From Flavobacteriales bacterium (lineage in GTDB: Bacteria > Bacteroidota > Bacteroidia > Flavobacteriales_D > Crocinitomicaceae): a DNA stretch of 34,793 nucleotides. The stretch covers positions 1-34,793 of the forward strand of contig CANCQX010000014.1 in NCBI GenBank assembly GCA_947380375.1, read 5' to 3'. Every line of letters begins with the position of its first letter. Position 1 is the stretch's first letter. Of the stretch, positions 6,932 through 31,794 are shown in pieces. A program made the position numbers and the translations under genes. Below the pieces are notes generated by a model. The model was not told where the DNA came from and did not search any database. It worked only from the letters and a program-made list of their open reading frames with translations.

Positions 6932-8086
6932 ATGAATGTAAAAAAGGGCATAGCAATTTTAGGATCAACGGGTTCTATCGGTACACAAGCGTTAGAAGTA
7001 ATTGGTGCATATCCAGATATTTTTGATTTACAAGTCATCACCGCTCATTCAAATGCTGATTTATTAATTGAACAAGCAATAAAACATCTTCCAAATGCTG
7101 TCGTAATAGGAGATGAGACTTTATATGAGAAAGTGAAACAATCACTTTGGGATTATGACATTACTGTTTATTCTGGTGAAGCCGCACTGTCTCAAGTAGT
7201 TGAATTTCACGAAATACATACTGTATTAACAGCATTAGTTGGTTATGCAGGATTAAAACCGACATTGGCTGCAATCAGAGCGAAGAAAACGATTGCCTTA
7301 GCGAATAAAGAGACATTGGTTTGTGCAGGAGAATTAGTAACAAAATTAGCTAGAGAAAACGGGGTAAATATTTATCCGGTTGATTCTGAACATTCAGCTA
7401 TTTTTCAATGTTTAGTTGGTGAGTTTCATAATAAAATAGAAAAGATTTACCTTACAGCTTCAGGAGGACCTTTCCGTGGTTGGTCTACAGAACAATTAAA
7501 AACGGTTACTCTCGCTCAAGCTTTGAAGCATCCAAATTGGGCAATGGGAGCTAAGATTACCATTGATTCTGCAACGATGATGAATAAAGGTCTTGAAGTT
7601 ATCGAAGCAAAGTGGCTCTTTAGTTTAAAAGCCGAACAAATAGATGTTATTGTACATCCTCAATCTATCGTTCATTCTTTAGTTCAGTTTGAAGATGGTA
7701 GTATGAAAGCGCAAATGGGATTACCAGATATGAAATTACCTATTCAATTTGCTTTGACATATCCTGATCGTTTGAAAACAGATTTCCCCCGTTTCAATTT
7801 TATGGACTATCCACAATTGACATTTGAGAAAGCTGATAAAGAAACCTTCAAAAATTTAGATTTAGCTTATAAAGCAATGGAAATGGAAGGTACAGCTGCT
7901 TGTATATTAAATGCAGCAAATGAGGTTGCCGTTGATGCTTTTTTAAATGAGAAAATTAGTTTTTTAGACATCGCACGTATAAATGAGGAAACCTTGAATA
8001 ACTGTATTTCTATTCAGAAACCAGAATACGAAGATTTTGTTGAAAGTGATCGTCAGGCAAGAGAATTTGCGAAATCTTTAGTTTAA
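6932..8086 (+). CDS. dxr: 1-deoxy-D-xylulose 5-phosphate reductoisomerase
   Basis: A cytosolic 384-residue enzyme of the MEP isoprenoid pathway that converts DXP to MEP with NADPH and a divalent metal. It begins with the dinucleotide-binding GSTGSIG (residues 11-17). Next come ALANKETLVCAGELV, PVDSEHSAIFQ (metal-binding Asp/Glu), ASGGPFR, HPNWAMGAKITIDSATMMNKGLEVIEA and VIVHPQSIVHSLVQF, all in the family order. Length is normal. The ATG sits four bases after a promoter-like TATTTTTA, suggesting leaderless translation. In many Bacteroidota rseP follows dxr, but here dxr stands alone and faces a BlaI-type gene across a structured intergenic stretch and terminator. Function is secure. Confidence 0.97.
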   Translation: MNVKKGIAILGSTGSIGTQALEVIGAYPDIFDLQVITAHSNADLLIEQAIKHLPNAVVIGDETLYEKVKQSLWDYDITVYSGEAALSQVVEFHEIHTVLTALVGYAGLKPTLAAIRAKKTIALANKETLVCAGELVTKLARENGVNIYPVDSEHSAIFQCLVGEFHNKIEKIYLTASGGPFRGWSTEQLKTVTLAQALKHPNWAMGAKITIDSATMMNKGLEVIEAKWLFSLKAEQIDVIVHPQSIVHSLVQFEDGSMKAQMGLPDMKLPIQFALTYPDRLKTDFPRFNFMDYPQLTFEKADKETFKNLDLAYKAMEMEGTAACILNAANEVAVDAFLNEKISFLDIARINEETLNNCISIQKPEYEDFVESDRQAREFAKSLV

Positions 8087-8154
8087 GAAAAAAATATTAA
8101 TACTAAAAGTTTTTATTGTAAAAATTTATTAGAACTTTAGTATTGAAATAAAAG

Positions 8155-8400
8155 TAGATGCGAAGCTAGCTTTCAATAGGTCTTTCTTTAGAAGAAAAAG
8201 TGTAACTTTTGAAGACCAAACGTAAGTGCTGGGAGTAAATTTTTCCGTAACCGCGTTTCGCATTTTCGCGAAAGAAAGCGTGTAGGAAAGTATTTACCTG
8301 AGATTTTACATAAAGTAATGAAGTAAAAAATTCCTAAGAAAGTACCTTGATTTTTGCTTACTTTTCATCAAGGAAAAGTGAGAAGGATGAAATTAAAACC
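8155..8400. other. Structured intergenic element between dxr and blaI-like gene
   Basis: The 356-bp gap 8087-8442 has no credible ORF but contains several hairpins and is locally richer in GC than other gaps. GGTCTT (8179-8184) pairs with AAGACC (8212-8217) around an inner AAAAGT/ACTTTT hairpin. GTAAATTTTTCC (8235-8246) pairs with GGAAAGTATTTAC (8285-8297), with a small internal mismatch, enclosing TTTCGC/GCGAAA (8256-8261 with 8268-8273). CTTACTTTTC (8357-8366) pairs with GAAAAGTGAG (8373-8382). It could be a non-coding RNA, a dispersed intergenic repeat, or a long dxr 3' UTR. Confidence 0.45.
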
Positions 8401-8432
8401 AAAAAAGCAGCTAATTTTTTAGCTGCTTTTTT
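8401..8432. terminator. Strong bidirectional terminator between dxr and blaI-like gene
   Basis: AAAAAAGCAGCTAA (8401-8414) is perfectly complementary to TTAGCTGCTTTTTT (8419-8432) with a TTTT loop. The A-run and T-run flanking a GC-containing core make it work in both directions. It ends 10 bp before the stop codon of the minus-strand gene at 8443. Confidence 0.92.
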
Positions 8433-8442
8433 GTTAATTTTA

Positions 8443-8754
8443 TTATAAAATTTCATTGATCTTTTGAATCAGAAGCGATTTATCTTCATCAAAATAATTT
8501 ATAACTAAATAATTAATCAGATAAGCTCCGTATTCTTCTTTTGAAATCTTCGGAAGATAAATGTAACCTCTACCTTTTGCCTTGTGTTTTACAAACTTTT
8601 TTTTCTCTAGAATTCGAATTATTGTCGAAGTCGTATTGTAGGCAGGTACCTGCTTCAAATCTTGGTAAAGTTCAACTATCTCTTTAACAGATGCCTTTTC
8701 CAATTTCCATAATCGAAGCATAACTTGCTCTTCTGCGGGCGTTAATCTGTTCAT
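8443..8754 (-). CDS. BlaI/MecI/CopY-family transcriptional repressor, orphan
   Basis: A 103-residue winged-helix regulator. MNRLTPAEEQVMLRLWKLEKASVKEIVE is the classic BlaI N-terminus, followed by the recognition-helix region PAYNTTSTIIRILEKKKFVKHKAKGRGYIYLPKISKEEYGAY, where NTT(S)T..R.LEKKGF.. and GR.Y.Y are family hallmarks. The C-terminal dimerisation helices are short; family members are usually about 115-130 residues. Classic BlaI/MecI repressors are cleaved when a BlaR1/MecR1 sensor peptidase, normally encoded next door, is triggered. No M56 peptidase gene is present here, so this is an orphan or is paired in trans. A perfect 14-bp palindrome lies 19 nt before the start and overlaps a weak promoter, which fits autorepression. 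The target genes are unknown. Confidence 0.85.
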   Translation of the reverse strand: MNRLTPAEEQVMLRLWKLEKASVKEIVELYQDLKQVPAYNTTSTIIRILEKKKFVKHKAKGRGYIYLPKISKEEYGAYLINYLVINYFDEDKSLLIQKINEIL

Positions 8755-8772
8755 AATTGTAGGATTTAAATC

Positions 8773-8786
8773 AATTTACGTAAATT
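8773..8786. promoter_or_regulatory. 14-bp perfect palindrome, candidate operator of the BlaI-like repressor
   Basis: AATTTACGTAAATT is self-complementary over all 14 bases. On the minus strand it overlaps a weak -7 box (TAAATTGA) with a TTG 20 nt upstream of that box, so binding would block the promoter. BlaI/MecI operators are dyads with TAC/GTA half-sites, and TTTAC/GTAAA fits that style. Confidence 0.55.
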
Positions 8787-8843
8787 TTTTATTCTTTACA
8801 ACTAAATTTTTAATAAATCTTACAAAAAGCAAATAACCATTAA

Positions 8844-10049
8844 TTACAAGCCTATTTTCTTTTTAACAGACGACTGAATACCATCTCTGTGCAAGAAAAT
8901 ATTCATTGTTTTATACTTAAAATAGCTTTCAGAAACATAGAAAAATCCTTTTGGATAATTATCCGTTCCCCAAGAGTTTTTAACTAAGAAAAATCGTGTT
9001 CCATTTTGGTCTTTGTATAGTCCAACTATGTGCATTCCATGATCATCTGTAGTTGTTTTAGTATCGTATGCTTTCTGACGTAATTCAGGTGTGATTACCA
9101 ATTCTTTTACAGGTTGTAAAAATGCATTTGATTTCTTTTCAGCACCACCATCTGAGAAATTTTTATTGCTTTTACCTTTCACTTGAATAGAAGAAGGGTC
9201 TTCTGGAACTATAGCAATACCTTCATTCCAACTAAATCCTTTTTCAGAAACATCTGCTCCCCAAGCTACAGTATAACCTGTTTTCAAAGCATTTTCTGTG
9301 ATATCCATCATATCATTTAATTCAACGTTGTAGCTTTCATTCCAAATCCAGTTATCAGGAACTTCAATTAAACATTTTTTGTTGTATGGAGAATTTGCAA
9401 ATGAAGTAACAGAAACGTATTCATCCATATTTAAACCTAAAGATGCTGCATACGTTTTAGGAGTATATTTTTTTCCATTGAATTCAAATTCTTTAATATC
9501 TGTTCCGAAGTAAGCATCTAAAACACCACTAAGAGCTGGTTTCCAAGATGTAGAAATACCATTGTTTCCCATATCTTTCATATATCCTAACAAACCTGTT
9601 ACAGCTCCATTCAATACACTGAACATTTCGCTGTGGTCATAAACATCATTTCCATCTTTTAATCCTGTATATACAGATTGAGGAACAATACCATAATTTT
9701 TAATTACGAAAGGAATATCATGAAAAGCTCCACCTTCAGAAAAATTACCTTTTCCGTCTAAACGAATGTATTTCTCAGCTTTTGACTCATACGCTTTTCG
9801 AGAAATAAACATTTGAGATAAAATAGCTGGATTTTTGTTTCCTTTTCTTATCATTTCGGACTCAAAAAACGACAAAGAAGAAAAACTCCAACAAGTTCCT
9901 GTATGACCTTGACTCAAAACAGGGGTCGCATCTAAATGAGCAACTTTGGTAAATTTGTATTCACTATTTTCAGCATTTGTAGTAGTTTCTTGAGCAAAAA
10001 CTATAGTTGAAAACCCTACAAAAATGAAATTAAATATTGTTTTTTTCAT
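8844..10049 (-). CDS. Secreted C1-family cysteine peptidase, bleomycin hydrolase/PepC-like
   Basis: A 401-residue papain-fold peptidase. Residues 1-19 form a signal peptide (cleavage near VFAQ), so unlike cytosolic bleomycin hydrolases it is exported. The oxyanion Gln47 and nucleophile Cys53 lie in SQGHTGTCWSFSSLSFFESE, His340 in DDHGMHIVGL, and Asn358 in LVKNSWGTDNYPKGFFYVSE, so the triad is complete. The long stretch between Cys53 and His340 is characteristic of the C1B group, which often acts as an aminopeptidase or oligopeptidase. The very C-terminus (SSVKKKIGL) may reach the active site, as it does in bleomycin hydrolase, but this is inference. It has its own TATATTTG promoter 21 nt before the ATG. 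The BlaI-like gene lies downstream in the same orientation, 89 bp away, with its own candidate promoter. Confidence 0.85.
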   Translation of the reverse strand: MKKTIFNFIFVGFSTIVFAQETTTNAENSEYKFTKVAHLDATPVLSQGHTGTCWSFSSLSFFESEMIRKGNKNPAILSQMFISRKAYESKAEKYIRLDGKGNFSEGGAFHDIPFVIKNYGIVPQSVYTGLKDGNDVYDHSEMFSVLNGAVTGLLGYMKDMGNNGISTSWKPALSGVLDAYFGTDIKEFEFNGKKYTPKTYAASLGLNMDEYVSVTSFANSPYNKKCLIEVPDNWIWNESYNVELNDMMDITENALKTGYTVAWGADVSEKGFSWNEGIAIVPEDPSSIQVKGKSNKNFSDGGAEKKSNAFLQPVKELVITPELRQKAYDTKTTTDDHGMHIVGLYKDQNGTRFFLVKNSWGTDNYPKGFFYVSESYFKYKTMNIFLHRDGIQSSVKKKIGL

Positions 10050-19909: not shown

Positions 19910-19967
19910 TCAATGTCAAATAGTGTCTTTTTTAACGTTATTTGGCGATAGATTAACAGTTTTTCAC

Positions 19968-21311
19968 ATGAAAATATCTAATAATCAGATGTTTAAAAAT
20001 TTTAACAAGTGGTGTTTTGGAATCTTATCAACGATGCTTTTCGTTGGTTCATTCAATTCAAATGCCCAAGGCGAAGCTCTTTTCAAAGCGAAATGTGCAA
20101 GTTGTCACCAACCACACAAAAATGGTACTGGACCAAAATTGTTTCAAGTAAGAACAAAATGGGCTGATGGTGGCGCAAAAGAAGGTTCAATTTACCAATG
20201 GGTAAATAATTGGCAAACTGCTGTTGCAACTGATCCTTATGCTCAAACTGTTTCTACGTGGTCTCCAACTGCGATGCAAGCATTTCCTGAGTTGAAAAAA
20301 GAAGATATAGATGCTATCTTAACTTGGGTTGATGAGCAACCAGATCCTGCTGCGGCTAATGCTGATGCAACTGGTGCAATGTCAACTGAAGCTATTGGTG
20401 AAGAAGGTGTTGAAGAAGACTCAAATACTTGGGTATGGGTTATGTTAGCTATTATATTTATTACTATCATAATGGCAGTAGGAGGTGTAAGACGTCAATT
20501 AAAAATAGTTACAGATGAAAATGTAAAACAAGGCGAAACATATACTGACGAATTCCGCTCTTGGGCTTGGAAAAACAAAAAATCAGTAATGATTGGATGT
20601 TTAGTGATATTTATCTCACTTTGTGTATCAGGTATTTTAGGCTTATCTACTATCGGTGTTGTTGAAGAATACCAACCATCTCAACCTATTGCATTTCCTC
20701 ACGCAATTCATACAGGAACAAATGGTATTGATTGTAAATACTGTCATAATTCAGTTACTAAATCAAAAAGTGCTGGTTTACCAACTGTTAACGTTTGTAT
20801 GAATTGTCACAAACAAATTAATGGACGAACTCCTGCACAACAAGAACAAATTGCTAAAGTATACGAAGCAGCTGGTTGGGATGCTGGAGGAATGAAATAT
20901 ACTGGTAAAACAAAAGAAATAGTTTGGAATAAAGTTCACGTTTTACCTGATCATGTTTATTTTAATCACTCTCAACACGTTGTAGTTGGTGGAGTAGATT
21001 GTAAACAATGTCATGGTGATATGACTAAGCAAGTTGAAACTGCTCAAGTGAAAACTGTTGCTGAATTAAACAAAATAGAAGGTAACGTTGTTCTTACTAG
21101 ACCTACTTTAACAATGGGATGGTGTATAGAATGTCATGGTGAAAAAGAAATCACTACTGGTTCTATCGATACAAAAGGAGATGGTTATTATAATGAAATT
21201 CACAAACGTTTATTGAATAATGATAAAAAATTATATAGTAAATACTTGGACGACGGTAAAGTAACTGTGAAAGAACTTGGCGGATGGGAATGTGCTAAAT
21301 GTCACTATTAA
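19968..21311 (+). CDS. actA: Alternative complex III subunit A, multiheme cytochrome c
   Basis: About 447 residues from the ATG at 19968 (another ATG at 19989 also fits; a GTG at 19923 would add 15 unlikely residues before the signal peptide). A signal peptide (CFGILSTMLFVGSFNSNAQ) leads to a monoheme cytochrome c domain with CASCH (Cys43). A Glu/Ala-rich linker and two membrane helices (about 156-174 and 206-232) follow, then the multiheme domain with CKYCH (256), CMNCH (277), CKQCH (345), CIECH (386) and CAKCH (442). That makes six c-type haems, one more than the pentahaem core. ActA carries electrons from the ActB Fe-S chain towards the oxidase. It is the first gene of the operon; actB follows 30 nt downstream. 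Confidence 0.93.
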   Translation: MKISNNQMFKNFNKWCFGILSTMLFVGSFNSNAQGEALFKAKCASCHQPHKNGTGPKLFQVRTKWADGGAKEGSIYQWVNNWQTAVATDPYAQTVSTWSPTAMQAFPELKKEDIDAILTWVDEQPDPAAANADATGAMSTEAIGEEGVEEDSNTWVWVMLAIIFITIIMAVGGVRRQLKIVTDENVKQGETYTDEFRSWAWKNKKSVMIGCLVIFISLCVSGILGLSTIGVVEEYQPSQPIAFPHAIHTGTNGIDCKYCHNSVTKSKSAGLPTVNVCMNCHKQINGRTPAQQEQIAKVYEAAGWDAGGMKYTGKTKEIVWNKVHVLPDHVYFNHSQHVVVGGVDCKQCHGDMTKQVETAQVKTVAELNKIEGNVVLTRPTLTMGWCIECHGEKEITTGSIDTKGDGYYNEIHKRLLNNDKKLYSKYLDDGKVTVKELGGWECAKCHY

Positions 21312-21341
21312 TTTACGCATAGAAAAACTTCAAATAAGCAC

Positions 21342-24300
21342 ATGGGAACAAATAAAAAATATTGGAAAGGTATTGAAGAGTTAAATCAAACTCCAGAATT
21401 CCTTGAGACGATAGATAAAGAATTTGCTCAAGAAATGTCTGTTCAAGAATTTCTTGGAGACGACAATCTAGCAGAATCTTCGACTAATCGTCGTGATTTC
21501 ATGAAATTTTTAGGATTTAGCGTTGCTGCAGCTACTTTAGCTGCTTGTGAAGCTCCTGTTACGAAAGCAATTCCTTACGTAATTAAACCTGAAAACGTAA
21601 CTCCAGGTATGCCGACTTGGTATGCTTCAACTTACTATGATGGTAATACGTATGCTAGTATTCTTGTGAAAACTAGAGAAGGTAGACCAATTTATATTAA
21701 AGGAAATGCTGATTATGGTGTTTCTAAAGGGGCTGTTAATGCTCAAATTATTGCATCCGTTTTAGGATTGTATGAAGGTTCAAGACTTCAAAATCCTACA
21801 ATAAATGGAGTTGATAAAGATTGGTCAAAAGTTGATTCAACTATTAAAAGTGAATTATCTGCAATTGCTGCTAAAAAAGGTAAAATTGTATTAGTTTCTG
21901 ATACAATTATAAGTCCTTCTATTCAAGGTAGTATAGCAAGTTTGGCTACATCATTAGGTTCTACTGTTGAATCTCCTGTTTTTGAACACGTTCAATACGA
22001 TGCTGTTTCATATTCAGGTATTAGATTAGCTAATTTAGCTTCATTTGGATTAAATGTTATTCCTGATTATAATTTTGCAAATGCAAAAACAATTGTTAGT
22101 ATTGGAGCCGATTTCTTAGGTTCTTGGTTACTTTCAACTCAATATCAATCAGAATACTTAATAAATAGAAATCCAGATGCTGAATGGATGTCAAGACATT
22201 TCCAATTTGAAACGGTAATGTCATTGACTGGATCAAATGCTGATTATAGAGCAATGATTAAACCATCAGAACAAGCAAATGTTTTAGCATATATCTTAAA
22301 AGGTTTTGGAGTTGATTCAGGTGTTTCTTCTAAGTTATCAGATGATGTTCGTAAAAAAGCAGACGAAGCAATTAGATCATTAAAAGCTTCTAAATCTGAA
22401 TCATTAGTTGTTGCTGGATCGAATAATAAATCAGTTCAAATTTTAGTTAATAAACTGAATAGTCATCTTGGTGCTTATACAAAAACTATAAACATTAACA
22501 ATCCAGTTAATTTATTCAAATCTGAGGATGAGAAAATGAATAAATTGGTTCAGGATGTTATAGCTGGAAAAGGTCCTGATGCAATCTTGTTTTATGGAGC
22601 TAACCCTGTTTATACATTGTCAAATGGTGAACAATTTTCAAAAGCTTTATCTAAAATTAAATTAACGGTTTCTTTTGCATCTCATGCCGATGAAACTGCT
22701 TCAAAATGTAAATTTGTTTGTCCTGATCACCATGCGTTAGAATCTTGGAATGATTACAATCCAAAATTAAATCATTACGCAGTTGCTCAGCCAACTATTA
22801 GACCTTTATACAATACTGCTGCTTTTGCTGAATCTTTATTGGTTTGGGCTGGTAAATCTACTAGAGGTGGAAAAGATTCTAAAGTTGTTTACGATGCAAT
22901 GCAAGCTAATTGGGAATTAACAGGTTTCCCAATGCAAACTGAGTACAAAGATTTCCATACTTATTGGAGTATGGCTATTCATAATAGTTGTGTAGAAACA
23001 ATTGTTGTTCCTGCTTCAGCACCTTTATTTATTGAAGGATCTTTAGCTGGTTTAACAAGTAATTTACCTAAAGGTAATGGTACTGAAATCGTTCTTTACC
23101 AAAAAATTGGTATAGGTTTAGGTGTTCAAACTAATAATCCTTGGTTACAAGAGTTACCAGATCCAATTTCTAAAGTTACTTGGGATAACTATATTACGAT
23201 GAATCCTTCAGAAATGAAAGGAACTTATCAAACTATTTTTGATCAAGAAACAGGTTTGAATATGGCGACTGTAAAAGTTGGTTCAAATCAAGTTTCATTA
23301 CCAGTTTATCCTTCACCAGGACAAACTCCAGGTACAATTGGTATTGCACTTGGTTATGGTAGAGGAGCTAACGGAGAGAAAATCGGTAAAGCAGCATTTC
23401 AAACAAAAGAATACGGTGGACATGTAATGAATGAAAATGGAAATCCTGCTCCAATTGGTGCAAATGTTTTTCCATTCACTAAATTTGAACATGGTACATT
23501 AAGTCATGATATTTCAGGTTCTTTAACAAAAATTGAAGGTTTATATCCAATTGCGGCTACTCAAATTCACCATACGGTGATGGGACGTTACTCAATTGTA
23601 CGTGAAACAACTTTCGATATATATAAATCTAAAGATAGAACAGCTTTTAATCCTGAGCATTTATTATCTGTAATGGATAAAGATGGTAATCACGTTAAAA
23701 TGCCTGTTGGTGAAGCAGATCTTTGGGAAGCTCATCCTGTTGAACATATTGGTCACCGTTGGGGAATGACAATCGATTTGTCTTCTTGTATCGGTTGTGG
23801 ATCTTGTTTGGTTTCTTGTCAATCTGAAAATAACGTTCCAGTTGTTGGTAAAGATGAAGTAAGAAGAGGGCGCGAAATGCACTGGATTCGTATTGACAGA
23901 TATTTCGCTTCTGATGAAGAAGTAGCTGTAGGTACTAGAAAAGGTGAAATAGATTACCACAATGCTGAAATTGCTTCAGTTAATCCTAAGGTAGTTCATA
24001 TGCCTATGTTGTGTCATCATTGTAATCATGCTCCTTGTGAGACTGTTTGTCCTGTTGCTGCAACAAACCATAGTAATGAAGGTTTAAATCAAATGGCTTA
24101 TAACAGATGTATTGGTACAAGATATTGTGCAAATAACTGTCCTTATAAAGTACGTCGTTTTAACTGGTTTAATTATCCTTCTTATAAAAAATTCACAGAA
24201 GTTAATCCTGCACAAGATGATTTAGGTCGTATGGTGTTAAATCCTGATGTTACTGTTCGTACACGTGGAGTTATGGAGAAATGTTCTTTCTGTGTTCAAA

Positions 24301-24626
24301 GAATTCAAGCTACTAAATTAGAAGCTAAAAAAGACGGTACTCCTGTTCAAGATGGATCACTTGCTACTGCTTGTTCAGAGTCTTGTCCTACTAACGCAAT
24401 AATCGTTGGTGACTGGAATGATATTCAATCAAAAGTTCGTAAAAGTTCTACAGATGATCGTGCTTATCAAGCATTAGAAGAAGTAGGTACTAAACCTAAT
24501 ATCTGGTATAAAGTGAAAGTTAGAAACGAACACAATCCGGAATTAAATACTCTTCAAAAAGAAACTGAGGTTGCACACCATGGTGGAAAAGTTGAAGGAC
24601 ATGGAGAAAAAAAGAGTCATCATTAA
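21342..24626 (+). CDS. actB: Alternative complex III subunit B, molybdopterin-enzyme-like plus Fe-S domains
   Basis: A 1094-residue peripheral periplasmic subunit. The N-terminal region has a twin-arginine motif RRDFMKFLGF (Arg50-Arg51) followed by a hydrophobic stretch ending in a lipobox-like LAAC (Cys69), pointing to Tat export and lipid anchoring. The large middle part resembles a molybdopterin oxidoreductase; in known ACIII this domain holds no cofactor. The C-terminal ferredoxin-like part has CIGCGSCLVSC (816-826), CHHCNHAPCETVCP (891-904), CIGTRYCANNCPYKVRRFNW (923 on) and CSFCVQR plus CSESCPTNAI, enough for the expected 3Fe-4S/4Fe-4S set. It takes electrons from the quinol site in ActC and passes them to ActA. 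The protein ends in a His-rich tail (AHHGGKVEGHGEKKSHH). Confidence 0.95.
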   Translation: MGTNKKYWKGIEELNQTPEFLETIDKEFAQEMSVQEFLGDDNLAESSTNRRDFMKFLGFSVAAATLAACEAPVTKAIPYVIKPENVTPGMPTWYASTYYDGNTYASILVKTREGRPIYIKGNADYGVSKGAVNAQIIASVLGLYEGSRLQNPTINGVDKDWSKVDSTIKSELSAIAAKKGKIVLVSDTIISPSIQGSIASLATSLGSTVESPVFEHVQYDAVSYSGIRLANLASFGLNVIPDYNFANAKTIVSIGADFLGSWLLSTQYQSEYLINRNPDAEWMSRHFQFETVMSLTGSNADYRAMIKPSEQANVLAYILKGFGVDSGVSSKLSDDVRKKADEAIRSLKASKSESLVVAGSNNKSVQILVNKLNSHLGAYTKTININNPVNLFKSEDEKMNKLVQDVIAGKGPDAILFYGANPVYTLSNGEQFSKALSKIKLTVSFASHADETASKCKFVCPDHHALESWNDYNPKLNHYAVAQPTIRPLYNTAAFAESLLVWAGKSTRGGKDSKVVYDAMQANWELTGFPMQTEYKDFHTYWSMAIHNSCVETIVVPASAPLFIEGSLAGLTSNLPKGNGTEIVLYQKIGIGLGVQTNNPWLQELPDPISKVTWDNYITMNPSEMKGTYQTIFDQETGLNMATVKVGSNQVSLPVYPSPGQTPGTIGIALGYGRGANGEKIGKAAFQTKEYGGHVMNENGNPAPIGANVFPFTKFEHGTLSHDISGSLTKIEGLYPIAATQIHHTVMGRYSIVRETTFDIYKSKDRTAFNPEHLLSVMDKDGNHVKMPVGEADLWEAHPVEHIGHRWGMTIDLSSCIGCGSCLVSCQSENNVPVVGKDEVRRGREMHWIRIDRYFASDEEVAVGTRKGEIDYHNAEIASVNPKVVHMPMLCHHCNHAPCETVCPVAATNHSNEGLNQMAYNRCIGTRYCANNCPYKVRRFNWFNYPSYKKFTEVNPAQDDLGRMVLNPDVTVRTRGVMEKCSFCVQRIQATKLEAKKDGTPVQDGSLATACSESCPTNAIIVGDWNDIQSKVRKSSTDDRAYQALEEVGTKPNIWYKVKVRNEHNPELNTLQKETEVAHHGGKVEGHGEKKSHH

Positions 24627-24645
24627 TTGAATAAATACAATTGTA

Positions 24646-26088
24646 ATGCATAAGGAAGCGGCAATTAGAGAACCCCTCATTTTAGGACACAAATCGTATC
24701 ACGATGTAACGGAAGACGTTTGTAAGTCAATTGAGGACAATGCACCAAGAATGTGGTATATACTTTTTGGTATTGCTTTAATTATTGGTCTATACGGAGT
24801 TGGATGTATCGCCTACCTTTTAGGTACTGGTATTGGTGTCTGGGGATTGAATAAAACTGTTGGATGGGCGTGGGATATCACGAACTTCGTTTGGTGGGTT
24901 GGTATTGGTCATGCTGGTACCTTAATTTCTGCAGTATTGTTATTATTCCGTCAAAAATGGAGGATGGCGATAAACCGTTCTGCAGAGGCGATGACTATTT
25001 TCGCTGTATTTATGGCGGGTACATTTCCTTTGATTCACATGGGCCGTTTATGGGTTGGTTATTGGACAATGCCTTTGCCGAATCAATTTGGTTCACTTTG
25101 GGTAAACTTTAATTCACCTTTACTTTGGGACGTTTTTGCAATATCTACTTATTTATCTGTATCACTTGTTTTTTGGTACATTGGTTTAATTCCTGATTTT
25201 GCTACAATTCGTGATAGAGCGAAAAGACCTATTCCTAAAAGAATGTATAGTATGCTTGCATTTGGTTGGTCAGGTAGAGCTAAAAACTGGAATCGTTTTG
25301 AGTTAGTTTCTTTAGTTTTAGCTGGTGTTGCTACTCCTTTAGTATTCTCAGTTCACTCTATTGTATCTTTTGACTTTGCTACATCAGTTATACCTGGATG
25401 GCACACAACAATTTTCCCTCCATACTTTGTTGCTGGTGCGGTATTCTCTGGATTTGCTATGGTTCAAACTTTGATGCTCGTGATGAGAAAAGCTATGGGT
25501 TTAGAAGCTTATATTCATGTTCGTCACGTTGAGTACATGAACATTGTAATTATGGTTACTGGTTCTATTGTAGGTGTTGCTTATTTAACTGAATTATTTG
25601 TTTCTTGGTATTCAGGTGTTGAATATGAGCAATATGCTTTCATTAATAGAGCTACTGGACCTTACTGGTGGGCTTACTGGTCGATGATGACTTGCAACGT
25701 AATTTCTCCTCAATTAATGTGGATTAGATCATTGAGAAGAAGTTTAGTTTTCACTTTTATTATTTCTATTGTTGTAAATATCGGTATGTGGTTTGAACGT
25801 TACGTTATTATCGTTACTTCATTACACAGAGATTATTTACCATCTTCTTGGACAATGCATTTCCCAAGTCATATTGATTTAGGTGTTTATGTTGGAACAA
25901 TAGGTTTATTTTTTGTATTCTTTTTATTGTTTGCTCGTTTCTTTCCTGTGTTGGCTTTAAATGAGGTTAAAACAATTTTGAAATCTTCAGGTGAATCATA
26001 TAAAAATGCACCAAGTCATGGACATGATAATCATGGTCATTCAGATCACGGACACATAGAAGATAATACTAATTCAAACAATCAATAA
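24646..26088 (+). CDS. actC: Alternative complex III subunit C, NrfD-like quinol-binding membrane protein
   Basis: A 480-residue polytopic protein with about 10 membrane helices. It starts with REPLILGHKSYHDVTEDVCKSIE, the usual ActC N-terminus. It shows NrfD/PsrC-type features: WDITNFVWWVGIGHAGTLISAVLLLFRQKWR and GWHTTIFPPYFVAGAVFSGFAMV. In known ACIII, ActC holds the menaquinol oxidation site beside the ActB Fe-S cluster and may contribute to proton translocation. A His-rich C-terminus (HGHDNHGHSDHGH) follows the last helix. It starts 19 nt after actB and ends 7 nt before actD. The length and order match Bacteroidota act operons. Confidence 0.94.
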   Translation: MHKEAAIREPLILGHKSYHDVTEDVCKSIEDNAPRMWYILFGIALIIGLYGVGCIAYLLGTGIGVWGLNKTVGWAWDITNFVWWVGIGHAGTLISAVLLLFRQKWRMAINRSAEAMTIFAVFMAGTFPLIHMGRLWVGYWTMPLPNQFGSLWVNFNSPLLWDVFAISTYLSVSLVFWYIGLIPDFATIRDRAKRPIPKRMYSMLAFGWSGRAKNWNRFELVSLVLAGVATPLVFSVHSIVSFDFATSVIPGWHTTIFPPYFVAGAVFSGFAMVQTLMLVMRKAMGLEAYIHVRHVEYMNIVIMVTGSIVGVAYLTELFVSWYSGVEYEQYAFINRATGPYWWAYWSMMTCNVISPQLMWIRSLRRSLVFTFIISIVVNIGMWFERYVIIVTSLHRDYLPSSWTMHFPSHIDLGVYVGTIGLFFVFFLLFARFFPVLALNEVKTILKSSGESYKNAPSHGHDNHGHSDHGHIEDNTNSNNQ

Positions 26089-26095
26089 TTCAGAC

Positions 26096-26632
26096 ATGGC
26101 AGAGAAAGTTATTTATGCAATGTATGACGATGATGATGTACTTAAAGATGGTGCAAAATTATTAGTCGCAAAAGGGGTAAAGGTATCTGAAGTATTTTCT
26201 CCATTTCCAATTCACGGTATTGATCCGATTATTGGAGTTAAGCAAACACGTTTAGGTATTGTTGCTTTCCTTTTTGCAATCACTGGTACATTATTAGCAA
26301 CATATGGAATGCGTTTCTTTATGATTACTGATTGGCCGATGAATATTGGTGGTAAACCAAATGGTACATATTTAGACAATATGTTAGCTTTTGTTCCAAT
26401 TACATTTGAGTTTACAGTTTTGTGTGCAGCTCATGGTATGGCAATTACTTATTTGTTAAGAAATAAAATTTTGCCTGGTATGCCAGCACAAAATCCAGAT
26501 CCTCGTACAACTGATGATAAATTTGTTATTGAATTAAGACAATCTGAAAATTCTCAATTTTCAGAAGATGAATTACTTTCAATGTTGAAACAAACTGGAA
26601 TAATAGAAATTGATCAAAAAGAAATTAATTAA
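26096..26632 (+). CDS. actD: Alternative complex III subunit D (DUF3341 membrane protein)
   Basis: A 178-residue protein. The N-terminal soluble part begins EKVIYAMYDDDDVLKDGAKLLVAKGVKVSEVFSPFPIHGID, a conserved ActD feature. Two membrane helices follow (about 58-78 and 100-122), with GMRFFMITDWPMNIGGKPN between them, and a hydrophilic C-terminal tail ends the protein. ActD is a small structural subunit placed next to ActC; it has no cofactor. It is seven bases downstream of actC, so translational coupling is likely, and 56 nt upstream of actE. A small hairpin lies in that gap. Confidence 0.92.
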   Translation: MAEKVIYAMYDDDDVLKDGAKLLVAKGVKVSEVFSPFPIHGIDPIIGVKQTRLGIVAFLFAITGTLLATYGMRFFMITDWPMNIGGKPNGTYLDNMLAFVPITFEFTVLCAAHGMAITYLLRNKILPGMPAQNPDPRTTDDKFVIELRQSENSQFSEDELLSMLKQTGIIEIDQKEIN

Positions 26633-26641
26633 TTTGCCATA

Positions 26642-26657
26642 AACACTGAGAAGTGTT
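26642..26657 (+). other. Small hairpin between actD and actE
   Basis: AACACT (26642-26647), loop GAGA, AGTGTT (26652-26657). This is the widest gap in the operon (56 nt), and the stem could slow RNases or mark a processing point. There is no T-tract, so it is not a terminator. Confidence 0.35.
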
Positions 26658-26688
26658 GTGTCTGACAAAATTAAACTTATAAAGACAG

Positions 26689-27426
26689 ATGAAAATTAAA
26701 TTCAAGGCAATAGCAAGTTTAGCACTAGTTGCAGCGTCTACATTTATTTTAGGCTCTTGCACTTCTAATGCTGATAGCTCTGGAACAGAGTATATGCCAG
26801 ATATGTATAGATCTCCAGCTATTGAACCATATGTAGATTATGGTGAAATTAGAGGAAAAGAGAATGAAGGTGTAAAAGGTAGAATATCTGCTTTAGTACC
26901 TCCTGCAAATACAATACCTTATTATGGTACTGACTCTGCAAAAGTTCATTTAATGTTACCATATTTCCGTAAGGCAAATGAAGCATTTAAGTTAACTCAC
27001 GGAATGTACGGATCTCGTTTATCTGCTAACGATGAATATCTTATGGCGGTTAATGATTTAAATCCTTACAAATTAACTGCTGATAATTCGGAAGCTATCT
27101 TCAAAAAAGGAAAGGAACTATTTACTGCAAATTGTGCTCATTGTCATGGTGAAAAAGGAGATGGTAATGGTCCTATGGTTGTAAGTGGTGCTTATGCAGG
27201 TGTTCCTAATTATACAACTGTATTAGCAACTGAAGGTCAAATGTTTTATTCTATCTATTATGGAAAAGGTGCAATGGGTTCTCATTCTTCTATGTTGGAT
27301 AAAAAAGAAATATGGACATTAGTTCATTATGTTAAGAAGTTTCAAAATTCAGCTTATGGAACTTTTGCAGCAGATGGTTCTACTGTGGCTACAGCTGTTG
27401 TAGCTGATACTACTAAAAAATTATAA
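26689..27426 (+). CDS. actE: Alternative complex III subunit E, monoheme cytochrome c lipoprotein
   Basis: A 245-residue lipoprotein: a signal peptide followed by LGSC with the lipidated Cys24. One haem motif CAHCH (Cys149-His153) lies in ELFTANCAHCHGEKGDGNGPMVVSG, and a Met near residue 196 in YYGKGAMGSHSSML is the likely sixth ligand. The preceding region (YGTDSAKVHLMLPYF, YGSRLSANDEYLMAVNDLNPYKLT) is typical of ActE. It is held to the membrane by its lipid and shuttles or passes electrons from ActA towards CuA of the oxidase. The operon position between actD and actF is the usual one. Confidence 0.93.
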   Translation: MKIKFKAIASLALVAASTFILGSCTSNADSSGTEYMPDMYRSPAIEPYVDYGEIRGKENEGVKGRISALVPPANTIPYYGTDSAKVHLMLPYFRKANEAFKLTHGMYGSRLSANDEYLMAVNDLNPYKLTADNSEAIFKKGKELFTANCAHCHGEKGDGNGPMVVSGAYAGVPNYTTVLATEGQMFYSIYYGKGAMGSHSSMLDKKEIWTLVHYVKKFQNSAYGTFAADGSTVATAVVADTTKKL

Positions 27427-27459
27427 GCTACTCAAAAATTAACACATTAACGAAAGAAG

Positions 27460-28662
27460 ATGGAATTCAAAATATCAAATAAATCTAAGACGCTAACAAA
27501 TGTCCTTTTAGGAGTAGGTGTTTTATTTACTGCAATTGGGATATTTTCAAATGTAGGAGAGCATAATCTTGTTCAACGTATTATGGCGAACGGATTAATT
27601 AATGGTTTTTATTTCTTTGCTATTGGTTTAGGAGCTTTATTTTTCCTTGCTTTACAATATGCAACAGAAACAGGATGGTATGCATCAATTAAAAGAGTTA
27701 TTGAAGCTGTAGCTGGTTTCTTACCTTATGGTATGGGTATTTTAGCCGCAGTACTTCTTATAATAACTTTTATGGATGGGGCTCATATTTATTTATGGAT
27801 GGATCCTGAAACTACAAATCCAGCATCTCATCATTATGATGAAATAATTGATGGTAAGTCTGCTTATTTGAATAAATTGTTTTTCTGGATTAGAACTGCA
27901 GCTTATTTTACAGTTTATTTTATTTATTGGAGAGGTTTCAGAAATCGTTCATTACAAGAAGATAAAGTTGGAGGTACTGAAATTCACTTTTTGAATTATA
28001 GAAAATCAGCTGTTTTTTTAGTTTTCTTTGCTGTATTCAGCTCTTCTTCTGCTTGGGATTGGTTAATGTCAATTGATGTTCATTGGTTTTCTACATTGTA
28101 TGGATGGTATTGTTTTGCAGGTATGTGGTGTTCAGCAATGACTGTTTTAGTTATGTTAACTATTTTTCTTAAGAAACAAGGTTATTTACCAAATGTAAAT
28201 GATAGTCATATACATGATTTAGGTAAATGGACATTTGCTACTTCTTTCTTATGGTCGTACTTATGGTTTTCTCAATTTATGTTGATTTGGTATGCTAATT
28301 TAGGTGAAGAGGTTGTTTATTACATGACACGTATCGAGCATTACAAATTCTTATATTTTGGAATGTTCTTCATTAACTTTGCATTTCCAATGGTTGTTTT
28401 AATGTCTAGAGAAGCTAAACGTCATGCTGGAATTTTAACTTTTGTTGGTGTAATAATTTTAATAGGTCATTGGTTAGATGTTTATATTCTTGTTTCTGCA
28501 GGTTCTATGGGTGCTAAAGCTTCTATAGGATTCTTAGAAATTGGTTTAGCTTTAGTTGGAGCTGGTTTTTTTATTCGCACAATTTTGAAAAATTTAACTA
28601 AAGCACCTTTAACACCGGTTAATCACCCGTTCTTGGACGAGAGTATTCACCACGAGATTTAA
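27460..28662 (+). CDS. actF: Alternative complex III subunit F, NrfD-like membrane protein
   Basis: A 400-residue protein with about 10 membrane helices, homologous in pattern to ActC but shorter. Characteristic segments are NGFYFFAIGLGALFFLALQYATETGWYASIKRV, the loop with YLWMDPETTNPASHHYDEIIDGKSAYLNKLFFWIRT, SSSAWDWLMSIDVHWFSTLYGWY and WSYLWFSQFMLIWYANLGEE. In ACIII, ActF packs against ActC; quinol is thought to be oxidised at ActC, while ActF may contribute a proton path. It is 33 nt after actE and 28 nt before coxB. Confidence 0.94.
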   Translation: MEFKISNKSKTLTNVLLGVGVLFTAIGIFSNVGEHNLVQRIMANGLINGFYFFAIGLGALFFLALQYATETGWYASIKRVIEAVAGFLPYGMGILAAVLLIITFMDGAHIYLWMDPETTNPASHHYDEIIDGKSAYLNKLFFWIRTAAYFTVYFIYWRGFRNRSLQEDKVGGTEIHFLNYRKSAVFLVFFAVFSSSSAWDWLMSIDVHWFSTLYGWYCFAGMWCSAMTVLVMLTIFLKKQGYLPNVNDSHIHDLGKWTFATSFLWSYLWFSQFMLIWYANLGEEVVYYMTRIEHYKFLYFGMFFINFAFPMVVLMSREAKRHAGILTFVGVIILIGHWLDVYILVSAGSMGAKASIGFLEIGLALVGAGFFIRTILKNLTKAPLTPVNHPFLDESIHHEI

Positions 28663-28690
28663 TAGTATATTTATCACAGTCAAATAAATA

Positions 28691-29938
28691 ATGATGGGAA
28701 GCAAATTAATTGCATTGATCGTAATAGTACTTGGAGTTATAGCAATAGCACAATTAGTACGTCTATATGAACTTTCTTCTAAGTTAAGAAATGAAGGAGA
28801 ACATGAAACTAACAGTCGTGATAACAGGTTGAATGCTCGTATGATGCTTGTTTTTATGGGATTCTTATTTTTAGGATTCATTTATTTAATGTTAAAATAT
28901 GGTTGGACAGGTATGGGTGAAGCTGCATCTGTTCATGGTAGAGAAACTGATTGGCTATTAAACATTAATTTTATATTAATAATTGTTGTTTTCTATATAA
29001 CTAACGCTCTTTTATTTTCTTTCGCTTATAAATATATTCGTAAGCCAGGTGTTAAAGCATTCTATTTTCCTCATGATAATAAATTAGAAATGATTTGGAC
29101 AGTTGTTCCTGCAATTGTTTTAGCTATTATTATCATTTTAGGTTTACGTAGTTGGAATACAATTACTGATGAAGCTGTTAAAGAATCTATTAATATTGAA
29201 TTATTTTCTAAACAATTTGATTGGACTGCACGTTATTCAGGTGATGATAATACGTTAGGAAAATTTGATTATAAATTAACTACTGATAATAATGAATTAG
29301 GTTTAATGACTACTAATACTATTGATACTGCAATTTTTCAAATGGAGAATGGTGTTTCAGGTATTAAAGTTTTAGAGAATAAAATTAATGATAAGAAAAT
29401 CATTTTAGTTCCTGAGGAGCGTCAAAAAATGATTGTTGATTTGGAAAGAAAATCTCGTCTAATTCGTATTCTTTATCAAATGAGAGGTCATCATGATTCT
29501 AAAATAGATAAATTTGCTTGGGATGATATTATTCAAAAAGATACATTGTTTCTTTCAGAAAATCAAGAGTACGAATTTAATTTCCGTGCTAAGGATGTAA
29601 TTCATTCTGCTTATTTCCCTCATTTTAGAACACAGATGAACACTGTGCCTGGATTAACTACTCGTTTTAAATTTACTCCTGATATCACTACAAAAGATAT
29701 GAGAGTTAAAATGAATGATTCAAAATTTAATTATGTTCTTTTATGTAATAAAATTTGTGGTAGTGCTCATTATAAAATGAAAATGATAGTTGTTGTTTTA
29801 GGTAAATCTGAATTTAAAAATTGGATGGCATCTAAGAAAAAATCTTCTACTTTTAAACAAGTTTACTTCCCCGTTGTAGCACCTGCTTCACCATTAGCGG
29901 AAGTTGTAGCTGATTCAGCAGTTGTAGAAAAAATGTAA
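28691..29938 (+). CDS. coxB: Cytochrome c oxidase subunit II (CuA subunit)
   Basis: A 415-residue protein with four predicted membrane segments (about 5-25, 52-72, 85-115 and 133-157), of which the last two correspond to the usual helix pair, followed by the cupredoxin domain. CuA ligands are His305 in VIHSAYFPHFR, then Cys352, Cys356, His360 and Met363 in CNKICGSAHYKM. The residue corresponding to the Glu of the classic C-x-E-x-C, which binds Mg in mitochondrial-type enzymes, is Lys354. There is an insertion of about 100 residues between the first CuA-domain strands and His305, and no C-terminal haem motif, so the enzyme is aa3- rather than caa3-type. Electrons must come from ActA/ActE or another c cytochrome. 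It is co-transcribed with the act genes. Confidence 0.94.
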   Translation: MMGSKLIALIVIVLGVIAIAQLVRLYELSSKLRNEGEHETNSRDNRLNARMMLVFMGFLFLGFIYLMLKYGWTGMGEAASVHGRETDWLLNINFILIIVVFYITNALLFSFAYKYIRKPGVKAFYFPHDNKLEMIWTVVPAIVLAIIIILGLRSWNTITDEAVKESINIELFSKQFDWTARYSGDDNTLGKFDYKLTTDNNELGLMTTNTIDTAIFQMENGVSGIKVLENKINDKKIILVPEERQKMIVDLERKSRLIRILYQMRGHHDSKIDKFAWDDIIQKDTLFLSENQEYEFNFRAKDVIHSAYFPHFRTQMNTVPGLTTRFKFTPDITTKDMRVKMNDSKFNYVLLCNKICGSAHYKMKMIVVVLGKSEFKNWMASKKKSSTFKQVYFPVVAPASPLAEVVADSAVVEKM

Positions 29939-29970
29939 TTAATTGAATTTAAATTTAAACACAAAATAAA

Positions 29971-31794
29971 ATGGCGGCAGTAGCGCACGAAGCACACGGA
30001 CATCACGATTCTCATGGTCATCATGAGGCTCATGGACACCATGAAGAAAGTTTTGTTTCAAAGTATATTTTTAGTCAAGACCATAAAATGATTGGTAAAC
30101 AGTTTTTATTAACTGCTATCTTTATGGGTATTGTCGCAATGTTATTATCGATACTTTTTCGTATTCAATTGGCTTGGCCTGGTGAAAGTTCTGATTTTTT
30201 AACTTTCTTTCTTGGTGAAACATGGGCTCCTGGAGGAATTATGAAAGAAGATATGTATTTAGGACTTGTTACTATACATGGTACAATCATGGTTTTCTTT
30301 TTATTAACTGGTGGTTTATCAGGTACTTTTTCTAATATGTTAATTCCTTTGCAAATTGGAGCTAGAGATATGGCTAGTGGTTTCCTTAATATGCTTTCTT
30401 ATTGGTTCTTTTTACTTTCATCTATTATAATGTTAGTTTCTTTATTTATAGAAACTGGACCAGCTATGGCAGGTTGGACAATTTATCCTCCTTTATCTGC
30501 TTTACCACAAGCTATTGGTGGTTCTGGATTAGGTATGACATTATGGTTAGCTTCTATGACAATATTTGTTGTATCTTCATTATTAGGTTCTCTTAATTAT
30601 ATAGTTACAATTTTAAATTTACGTACAAAAGGGATGTCAATGACTAGAATGCCTCTTACAATTTGGGCTTTCTTTGTTACTGCTATTTTAGGTGTACTTT
30701 CTTTCCCAGTATTATTTTCTGCAGTATTGTTATTAATGATGGATAGATTAGCTGGTACTAGTTTTTATTTATCTGATATTATTGTTGGTGGTGAAATGTT
30801 AGCTAATCATGGAGGTTCACCAATTTTGTACCAACATTTATTTTGGTTCTTAGGTCACCCTGAGGTTTACATTGTATTATTACCTGCTTTAGGTTTATCT
30901 TCTGAAATTATTTCTACTAATTCTCGTAAACCTATTTTTGGTTACCGTGCGATGATTGGATCTATTTTAGCGATTGGTTTCTTATCATTTATTGTTTGGG
31001 GTCACCACATGTTTATTACTGGTATGAATCCTTTTATCGGAAGTGTATTCGTTTTTACAACTTTATTAATTGCTATTCCATCTGCTGTAAAAGTATTTAA
31101 TTACATTACTACATTATGGAAAGGGTCAATTGTATTAACTCCAGCAATGATGTTTGCAATTGGTTTGGTTTCTACTTTTATTACTGGAGGTGTTACTGGT
31201 ATTATTTTAGCAGATTCAGCTTTAGATATCGCAATTCATGATACGTATTTTGTTGTTGCTCACTTTCACATTGTAATGGGTATGTCTGCAGTATTTGGAA
31301 TGTTTGCTGGTGTATATCATTGGTTCCCTAAAATGTATGGTAAAATGTTAAATAAACGTTTAGGATATGTTCATTTTTGGATTACAATATTTGGTGCTTA
31401 TGGTGTTTTCTTTCCTATGCATTTCGTTGGTTTAGCTGGTGCTCCTCGTCGTTATTATGATTATTCAGTTTATGGAGAATTCAATACTAGTTCTCAAGAA
31501 ATGATGATGGATTTAAATGTAATAATTACAATTTTTGCTATCATTGCCGCTTTAGGTCAGTTAGTTTTCTTGTTTAATTTCTTCTATAGTGTTTTTAGAG
31601 GACCTAAAGCAATACAAAATCCTTGGAGATCGAATACTTTAGAGTGGACAACTCCAGTTGAACATGTTCATGGTAATTGGCCAGGTGAATTACCAACAGT
31701 TCATAGATGGCCTTATGATTATTCTAAGCCAGGTGCTGAGGATGATTTTATTCCTCAAACTGTTCCTTTAGCTGATGGTGAAATTGAACATTAA
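29971..31794 (+). CDS. coxA: Cytochrome c oxidase subunit I (haem-copper oxidase, A-type)
   Basis: A 607-residue subunit with 12 core helices that reduces O2 to water and pumps protons. Signature sites are IHGTIMVFFLLTGG (low-spin haem His), LGHPEVYIVLLPALG (CuB His with the cross-linked Tyr and the Glu of the D-channel, so A1-type), WGHHMFITG (two CuB His) and AHFHIVMG (haem a3 and haem a His). The first 28 residues contain ten His in HGHH-type repeats before the first helix; this tail is outside the conserved core. No subunit III or IV gene follows; the operon ends 20 nt later at a strong terminator, so these subunits must be encoded elsewhere. Confidence 0.96.
   Translation: MAAVAHEAHGHHDSHGHHEAHGHHEESFVSKYIFSQDHKMIGKQFLLTAIFMGIVAMLLSILFRIQLAWPGESSDFLTFFLGETWAPGGIMKEDMYLGLVTIHGTIMVFFLLTGGLSGTFSNMLIPLQIGARDMASGFLNMLSYWFFLLSSIIMLVSLFIETGPAMAGWTIYPPLSALPQAIGGSGLGMTLWLASMTIFVVSSLLGSLNYIVTILNLRTKGMSMTRMPLTIWAFFVTAILGVLSFPVLFSAVLLLMMDRLAGTSFYLSDIIVGGEMLANHGGSPILYQHLFWFLGHPEVYIVLLPALGLSSEIISTNSRKPIFGYRAMIGSILAIGFLSFIVWGHHMFITGMNPFIGSVFVFTTLLIAIPSAVKVFNYITTLWKGSIVLTPAMMFAIGLVSTFITGGVTGIILADSALDIAIHDTYFVVAHFHIVMGMSAVFGMFAGVYHWFPKMYGKMLNKRLGYVHFWITIFGAYGVFFPMHFVGLAGAPRRYYDYSVYGEFNTSSQEMMMDLNVIITIFAIIAALGQLVFLFNFFYSVFRGPKAIQNPWRSNTLEWTTPVEHVHGNWPGELPTVHRWPYDYSKPGAEDDFIPQTVPLADGEIEH

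Follow-up and report, generated by a model that had tools for sequence, protein, structure and literature searches.

The gap downstream of dxr in the window (the whole stretch of 34,793 nucleotides that was analysed) is best read, with a probability of roughly 85%, as an old, decayed copy of a dispersed non-coding mobile element (a MITE) with a structured core that occurs alone in other genera. The gap lies between dxr (6932–8086, + strand) and a convergent gene for a BlaI/Penicillinase_R-like repressor (8443–8754, − strand). The sequence-only reading had described 8155–8400 as a multi-hairpin stretch without an ORF, of higher local GC and followed by a strong terminator. This description largely stands: there is no ORF of 90 or more amino acids between the two genes, GC content is 0.35–0.41 in 100-base segments of 8150–8349 against 0.21–0.27 in the flanking gap, and a perfect 15-bp stem at 8400–8433 is terminator-like from both strands, which suits the convergent gene pair. 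None of the 22 further copies of the element in the alignment shows this stem at the corresponding position; it is local, lies outside the element and is not part of the dispersed sequence. Folded without the terminator, 8155–8400 does moderately better than shuffled sequence (z = −2.7 on the + strand, matched by 4 of 200 shuffles, and z = −2.9 on the − strand, matched by 1 of 200), and folding of 8120–8445, terminator included, gave z = −5.3 (0 of 100 shuffles as good). Elsewhere in the window, co-directional genes at 19923–31794 with multihaem cytochrome c, Fe–S and COX1 domains look like a cluster for alternative complex III and an oxidase.

Among the possibilities raised by the sequence-only reading was that the gap holds one member of a dispersed family of extragenic repeats, to be checked by a search for copies in the genome and its relatives, and this search bore it out. 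A covariance model built from 20 copies found at least 15 places in the window's own genome (best 51 of 3407 candidates scored) and at least 38, 29 and 29 places in the congeners G001, G002 and G004 (best 51 candidates per genome scored). Among the other eight genomes of the genus, again with 51 candidates scored in each, six had no match and two had two weak matches each. By blastn, the query 8087–8442 gave 14 matches in its own genome at 12 or more distinct places (best 12 of 121 candidates scored); of these matches, one is the reverse complement of the terminator itself and two belong to a single copy. The three congeners gave 12–14 blastn matches each, centred on 8235–8383, and a match in G016 spans just the terminator surroundings. 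A pattern for the last hairpin of the core (H3, below) occurred with up to three mismatches at 11 own-genome places, and its reversed control at none. We examined the context of 59 copies, chosen from the loci compared (at least 111 copies were found in the four genomes), with a crude ATG-only ORF caller; 58 lie outside ORFs of at least 100 amino acids, and the core is inside such an ORF in one. Where both neighbours were called (31 copies), 17 copies lie between convergent genes, 13 between tandem genes and 1 between divergent genes, these being raw counts without a baseline that include some orthologous copies. The contexts fit insertion tolerated at the 3′ ends of genes. The element is short, non-coding and multicopy in the manner of MITEs, though complete copies exceed 70–300 bp.

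Complete copies in G001, G002 and G004 are MITEs that carry terminal inverted repeats of the form GGATCAA...CAAAA.TTG. Among 21 aligned copies from G004 and G002, 11 have a left inverted end of the kind GGATCAATACCAAAAGTTGGGGAG, eight have a different left flank (AGTAGAAACCGAATCC...), one is unclear and one is cut by a contig end. On the right, five of these copies end in the kind GGGTTTGATCC / CCCCACAACATTCGGGTTTGATCC and four in TTCTGATCC or alike, the remainder being weaker or other. The left-end pattern, with up to three mismatches, matched 12, 12 and 11 times in G001, G002 and G004 and had no match in the own genome. The right-end pattern matched at 31 places in four of the six genomes searched (1, 7, 10 and 13 in the own genome, G001, G002 and G004), the lone own-genome match having three mismatches. 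Reversed controls of both patterns gave no matches. The different left flank, with AGTAGAAACCGAATCC-like repeats, was seen at L060, L061, L157, L161, L162, L058, L170 and L171, and is perhaps another mobile sequence or a recombination product.

Target duplications of 8 bp, the length usual for the ISL3 family of insertion sequences, are exact in 6 of 16 end pairs of these relatives and have at most one mismatch in 8 of 16; the flanks of 8 of 16 pairs differ at two or more positions. (Seventeen end pairs were listed, and a second L147 row, with four mismatches, was dropped.) Control cross-pairs of flanks gave 0 of 240 exact and 1 of 240 with one mismatch. Copies with exact duplications are 349–389 bp long, with one of 460 bp, and none of the six is located in the own genome. 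The joined flanks of six insertions were compared with eight genomes. Empty sites with one intact 8-mer were found for L214 (GGAAATTC, in G004) and for L144 (GTTGTTAG, in contig C88 of the own genome and contig C154 of G007). Sites for L022 and L202 ran on without interruption, though with a degenerate 8-mer; the same holds for further L214 matches in G005, G006 and G003, and the joined flanks of L055 and L146 had no spanning match in the loci compared. Target duplications and empty sites were found for relatives, and neither was found for the window copy itself. Among the orthologous dxr gaps, within the flanks compared, only the own genome has a BlaI-like gene close to dxr, and the window copy therefore has no readable empty site; about 500 bp downstream of dxr in G001 there is a further copy of the element. 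A candidate for a larger autonomous element, on contig C5 of G002, was rejected, its two parts being taken as independent of each other because the gene between them looks like what we take to be an isoaspartyl-peptidase gene.

In the window the element reaches left of 8155, to about 8094. A decayed left terminal inverted repeat at 8094–8116 (+ strand) aligns with the left ends of other own-genome copies; by hand comparison, 14 of the 22 letters at 8094–8115 are as in GGATCAATACCAAAAGTTGGGG, with eight mismatches. The left arm of the MITE follows at 8117–8178 (+ strand), has low conservation in the alignment with other copies and ends GATGCGAAGCTAGCTTTCAATA. Another own-genome copy (L042/L021) is 81% identical to the window over 8137–8383. 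After 8385 we saw no right inverted end, and no target duplication was recognisable for this copy. It also holds a nested second repeat, R1 (GAAGAAAAAGTG...GACCAAACG...GTGCTGGGAG), at 8191–8234 (+ strand), whose border with the closing stem of the core (P0, below) is approximate. R1 is at this position in 2 of 23 aligned copies, the window's and L042. R1-like matches without the element occur, among 59 genomes, in G006, G008, G017, G019, G020, G023 and G034, and in G005 one copy of the element has R1 (L192) and another does not (L193). More widely, R1 (about GAAAAAGCACTGCTTTTGAAGACCAAACGTTAGTGCAGGGA) is nested at differing places in the element (the window, L042, L044, L040, L192, L007 and others), also stands alone, and is in tandem once (L007). 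The first of three stems proposed by the sequence-only reading, 8179–8217 (GGTCTT/AAGACC), does not survive this comparison: it is not conserved, and its 3′ arm lies inside R1 and so is found there in the same 2 of 23 copies. The stem pairs MITE sequence with R1 sequence and is an artefact of the nested repeat.

Judged by their letters, the MITE ends match those of ISAon1-group insertion sequences (ISL3 family), which are candidate autonomous partners. At L290, two MITE-like ends 1431 bp apart enclose ISAon1 proteins (512.4 bits against a cut-off of 250 and 151.2 bits against 55; also PF01610), and no target duplication was seen around this insertion sequence. An end-pattern scan of named genomes gave at least 120 stretches; among the matches listed, most records are from Bacteroidota and many lie near contig ends. 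In the own genome, contig C67 starts in a frame that is 31/37 identical to the C terminus of the L290 transposase (PF01610 score 22.8, just below the cut-off of 23), followed by GCTCCCCACAACAATTAGACTTGATCC, and C88 has the same letters; by hand count, 22 of 27 letters of this right end are as in the MITE right end. Contig C168 carries the left end GGATCAAGTCTAAAACTTGTGGGG at its contig end, ahead of an ISAon1-upstream-like frame that starts there and is truncated by the contig end (24.6 bits, cut-off 55). Similar ISAon1-type pieces are present in G004. An ISL3 search of the own genome found no intact ISAon1 copy and returned short contig-end pieces with scores under the family cut-offs, which are explained by the pieces on C67, C88 and C168. 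Through these pieces, the MITE shares its ends with an autonomous type of insertion sequence in the same genome. Doubled ISAon1-type inverted ends were also observed, in part near the 3′ end of L402 (GGATCAAGTCTAAAACGGATCAAGTCTAAAACTTG) and as two complete, consecutive ends in L277 and L372. A search of open-licence PMC papers found none that names ISAon1.

Within the element, all on the + strand of the window, lies a folded core. The two other stems of the sequence-only reading were upheld, namely 8235–8297 with its nested TTTCGC/GCGAAA hairpin (H1; outer stem 8235–8246/8285–8297, inner stems 8252–8254/8278–8280 and 8257–8261/8268–8272) and 8357–8366/8373–8382 (H3, 8357–8382, with the loop ATCAAG). 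That reading had missed hairpin H2 (8304–8328, stem 8304–8309/8323–8328) and the closing stem P0, a duplex of −10.6 kcal/mol between 8179–8191 (GGTCTTTC.TTAG) and 8334–8346 (CTAAGAAAGTACC, the conserved partner of GGTCTTTC about 150 nt downstream). Between P0 and H3, the motif CTTGAT (8346–8351) is complementary to the H3 loop (8367–8372).

Covariation was tested on 20 copies and on a three-genus set, and compensatory changes were found. In the 20 copies, 7 of 36 pairs had double-sided changes against 2.9 in shuffles, with 23 double-changed cells against 6.2, and 0 of 500 shuffles reached either value; further pair types numbered 16 against 14.0 (39 of 500 shuffles as high). Versions of the structure slid along the same alignment had at most three double-changed pairs and four cells. 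Both sides had changed among these copies in four pairs of H1, and one pair of H2 is U–A in 11 copies and C–G in 8. The three-genus alignment held 13 copies, six from the window's genus, four from G057 and three near-identical tandem units from G017. In it, RNAalifold recovered inner H1 and H3 but neither H2 nor most of outer H1; there were 45 double-changed cells against 15.0 (0 of 500 shuffles), 10 double-changed pairs against 7.0 (11 of 500) and 18 further pair types against 21.8 (499 of 500 as high). Since the MAFFT alignment of P0 was off by one column between genera, this stem was tested by swapping duplex strands among 22 copies (12, 4 and 6 from the three genera; 16 distinct). Native duplexes had a mean of −11.5 kcal/mol, compared with −8.2 for swaps within a genus (174 swaps), −3.8 for swaps across genera (288, one of them as good as the native mean) and −2.9 with shuffled 3′ strands. 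We conclude that the core stems are supported by compensatory changes.

Of 22 aligned copies, 16 have a CTTGAT motif and an H3 loop that are full six-base complements; mismatches number one in L181b and one or two in L427, in L429 and in each of the three L179 units. A motif scan for CTTGAY/RTCAAG gave 111 distinct, non-independent contexts, with T/A in 100, C/G in 9, C/A in none and T/G in 2, and admitted TTGAY with RTCAA only, so that it omits L181b, L427, L429 and the L179 units. The two T/G contexts look unrelated. A full pseudoknot of CTTGAT with H3 would be strained, because the H3 loop has six bases and there is no linker; a switch between H3 and a CTTGAT–ATCAAG hairpin is as possible.

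Outside the genus, a second covariance model matched in at least 30 of 199 genomes of the order, the own genome included, and in at least 18 of 55 genera. The survey covered genomes at least 90% complete, and these counts are lower bounds because 15 candidates per genome were scored. Among the candidates scored, only three genera (g1, g7 and g42) have matches that exceed 60 bits; by model score, the best matches in the other 15 genera reach 40.7–57 bits, and several of them clearly retain the CTTGAT–H3 end. Four copies in G057 resemble one another between the P0 strand and H3 and differ on either side, and in G147/G216 and in G168 the likeness stops at or just past H3. Two other genera with strong matches have the core without detected MITE ends. 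A scan for MITE end pairs at loci L179–L195 (13 of 17 from other genera) found no pair, which is weak evidence for their absence because the same scan missed the decayed window copy too. Tandem arrays of the core or of CTTGAT–H3 units were seen in three other genera (L179, L184–L186 and L457), with units in G017, G040 and G097 of ~311 nt, ~250 nt and 464 nt, respectively. That these arrays are attC-like sites was considered as a conceivable reading. The window had no Rfam match at the gathering threshold, and the only match in 12 core-copy loci was a cobalamin riboswitch, which does not overlap the core, at L428; 43 weak matches at a permissive threshold were set aside, as most overlap the AT-rich terminator and none is at its family's gathering score. 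None of the titles and abstract openings surveyed among open-licence PMC papers describes the element. We tentatively suggest that the core (P0–H1–H2–CTTGAY–H3, loop RTCAAG) represents a structured Bacteroidota element that has yet to be catalogued and spreads by itself as folded RNA or single-stranded DNA, being sharp-bordered and alone in some genera (the four G057 copies, P0 strand to H3), tandem in others and enclosed by a MITE in the window's genus, with the CTTGAY–loop pairing acting as a functional pseudoknot or switch. We give this a distinctly less than even chance, since no more than three genera have strong core matches.

Alternatively, the core might be a repeat of the REP/BIME kind that is mobilised by a REP-associated tyrosine transposase (RAYT; Y1, HUH type). 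In the own genome, a RAYT gene (NF047646, 97.9 bits against a cut-off of 80) does lie between left and right pieces of the element, with R1 units beside it, and passages of PMC6006769 describe Bacteroidetes subclass 2.6 TnpA-REP genes flanked by atypical structures that are found elsewhere in the genome. However, across the 30 RAYT loci compared, adjacent pieces of the element were seen next to the own-genome gene and next to a broken relic in G004 but nowhere else, and what recurs with the gene is GGATTTGCAATCC palindromes. We consider this origin unlikely and keep RAYT only as a rival carrier, since the element's pieces do not accompany this gene in other genomes. The own-genome gene (L063, contig C191, 147–1109) has NHIH and YIHNNP motifs and GGATTTGCAATCC palindromes at its borders; it sits between pieces of one copy of the element, and the palindromes recur by related RAYT genes in other genomes.

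Less probable still is an sRNA ending at 8400–8433, the other possibility raised by the sequence-only reading, whether as a trans-acting sRNA with a gene of its own or as an sRNA processed from the dxr 3′ untranslated region. Compensatory changes in several stems and the strong terminator immediately downstream would suit such an RNA, but each of four genomes has 15 to 38 copies of the element or more, in differing contexts, no such terminator is visible in the 22 other aligned copies, and the window copy contains a nested repeat and decayed ends. Promoters in 7900–8900 are at chance level (4 found against 3.9 expected), in addition to the Rfam result above; read-through from dxr into the gap is likely, as a prediction. 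An origin of the hairpins as inverted repeats that arose by chance in AT-rich intergenic DNA, for which the z-score of only about −2.7 without the terminator might speak, is scarcely credible: the genus and two further genera share a conserved architecture with compensatory changes.

A decayed MITE around a structured core suggests the following history. The core (P0–H1–H2–CTTGAT–H3) would be older than the MITE ends, since other genera have it with no detected ends; a MITE would have enclosed this pre-existing core in the window's genus. Complete copies may have been moved in trans by an ISAon1-type transposase recognising their ends, to judge from the similarity of those ends. The core itself may act as a folded single strand, either as read-through RNA or as single-stranded DNA in replication or transposition. 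The window copy would now be immobile, in the 3′ untranslated stretch of dxr ahead of a local terminator, and was presumably tolerated in its gap because it sits between convergent genes.

On this account an apparent sRNA candidate becomes a mobile-element fossil, which calls for caution over sRNA calls in such gaps. The covarying fold has MITE ends in one genus, lacks detected ends in two and has weaker matches in 15 more, with no Rfam match to it in the loci tested, and is a tractable system in which to ask whether small non-coding elements are sustained by selection on folded RNA or single-stranded DNA. Among known systems, the STAXI motif, in the outline given in PMC2864571, is a pseudoknot unit in tandem repeats that has been discussed as RNA or single-stranded DNA; the resemblance is one of kind, by description rather than sequence. 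With REP/BIME sequences and their RAYTs the element shares extragenic palindromes in many copies, but it is larger, has a closing stem around two hairpins and has no consistent RAYT linkage. It shares the ends GGATCAA...CAAAA.TTG.GGA with the ISAon1 group of the ISL3 family (NCBIfam NF049916/NF049917, PF01610) but is without a transposase, its right end agreeing in the 22 of 27 letters noted above with the own-genome piece. MITEs, in the summary of PMC3733652, are non-coding, 70–300 bp long, with inverted ends of 15–30 bp, and are often transcribed and folded; MITEs of Bacteroidota have already been published, for example in what is outlined in PMC4596501 and PMC9769881. Like the MITEs so summarised, the element is non-coding, multicopy, folded and mostly intergenic, with inverted ends and a target duplication. 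Unlike them it is longer (349–389 bp, one 460), and it encloses a core that is found without detected ends in other genera.
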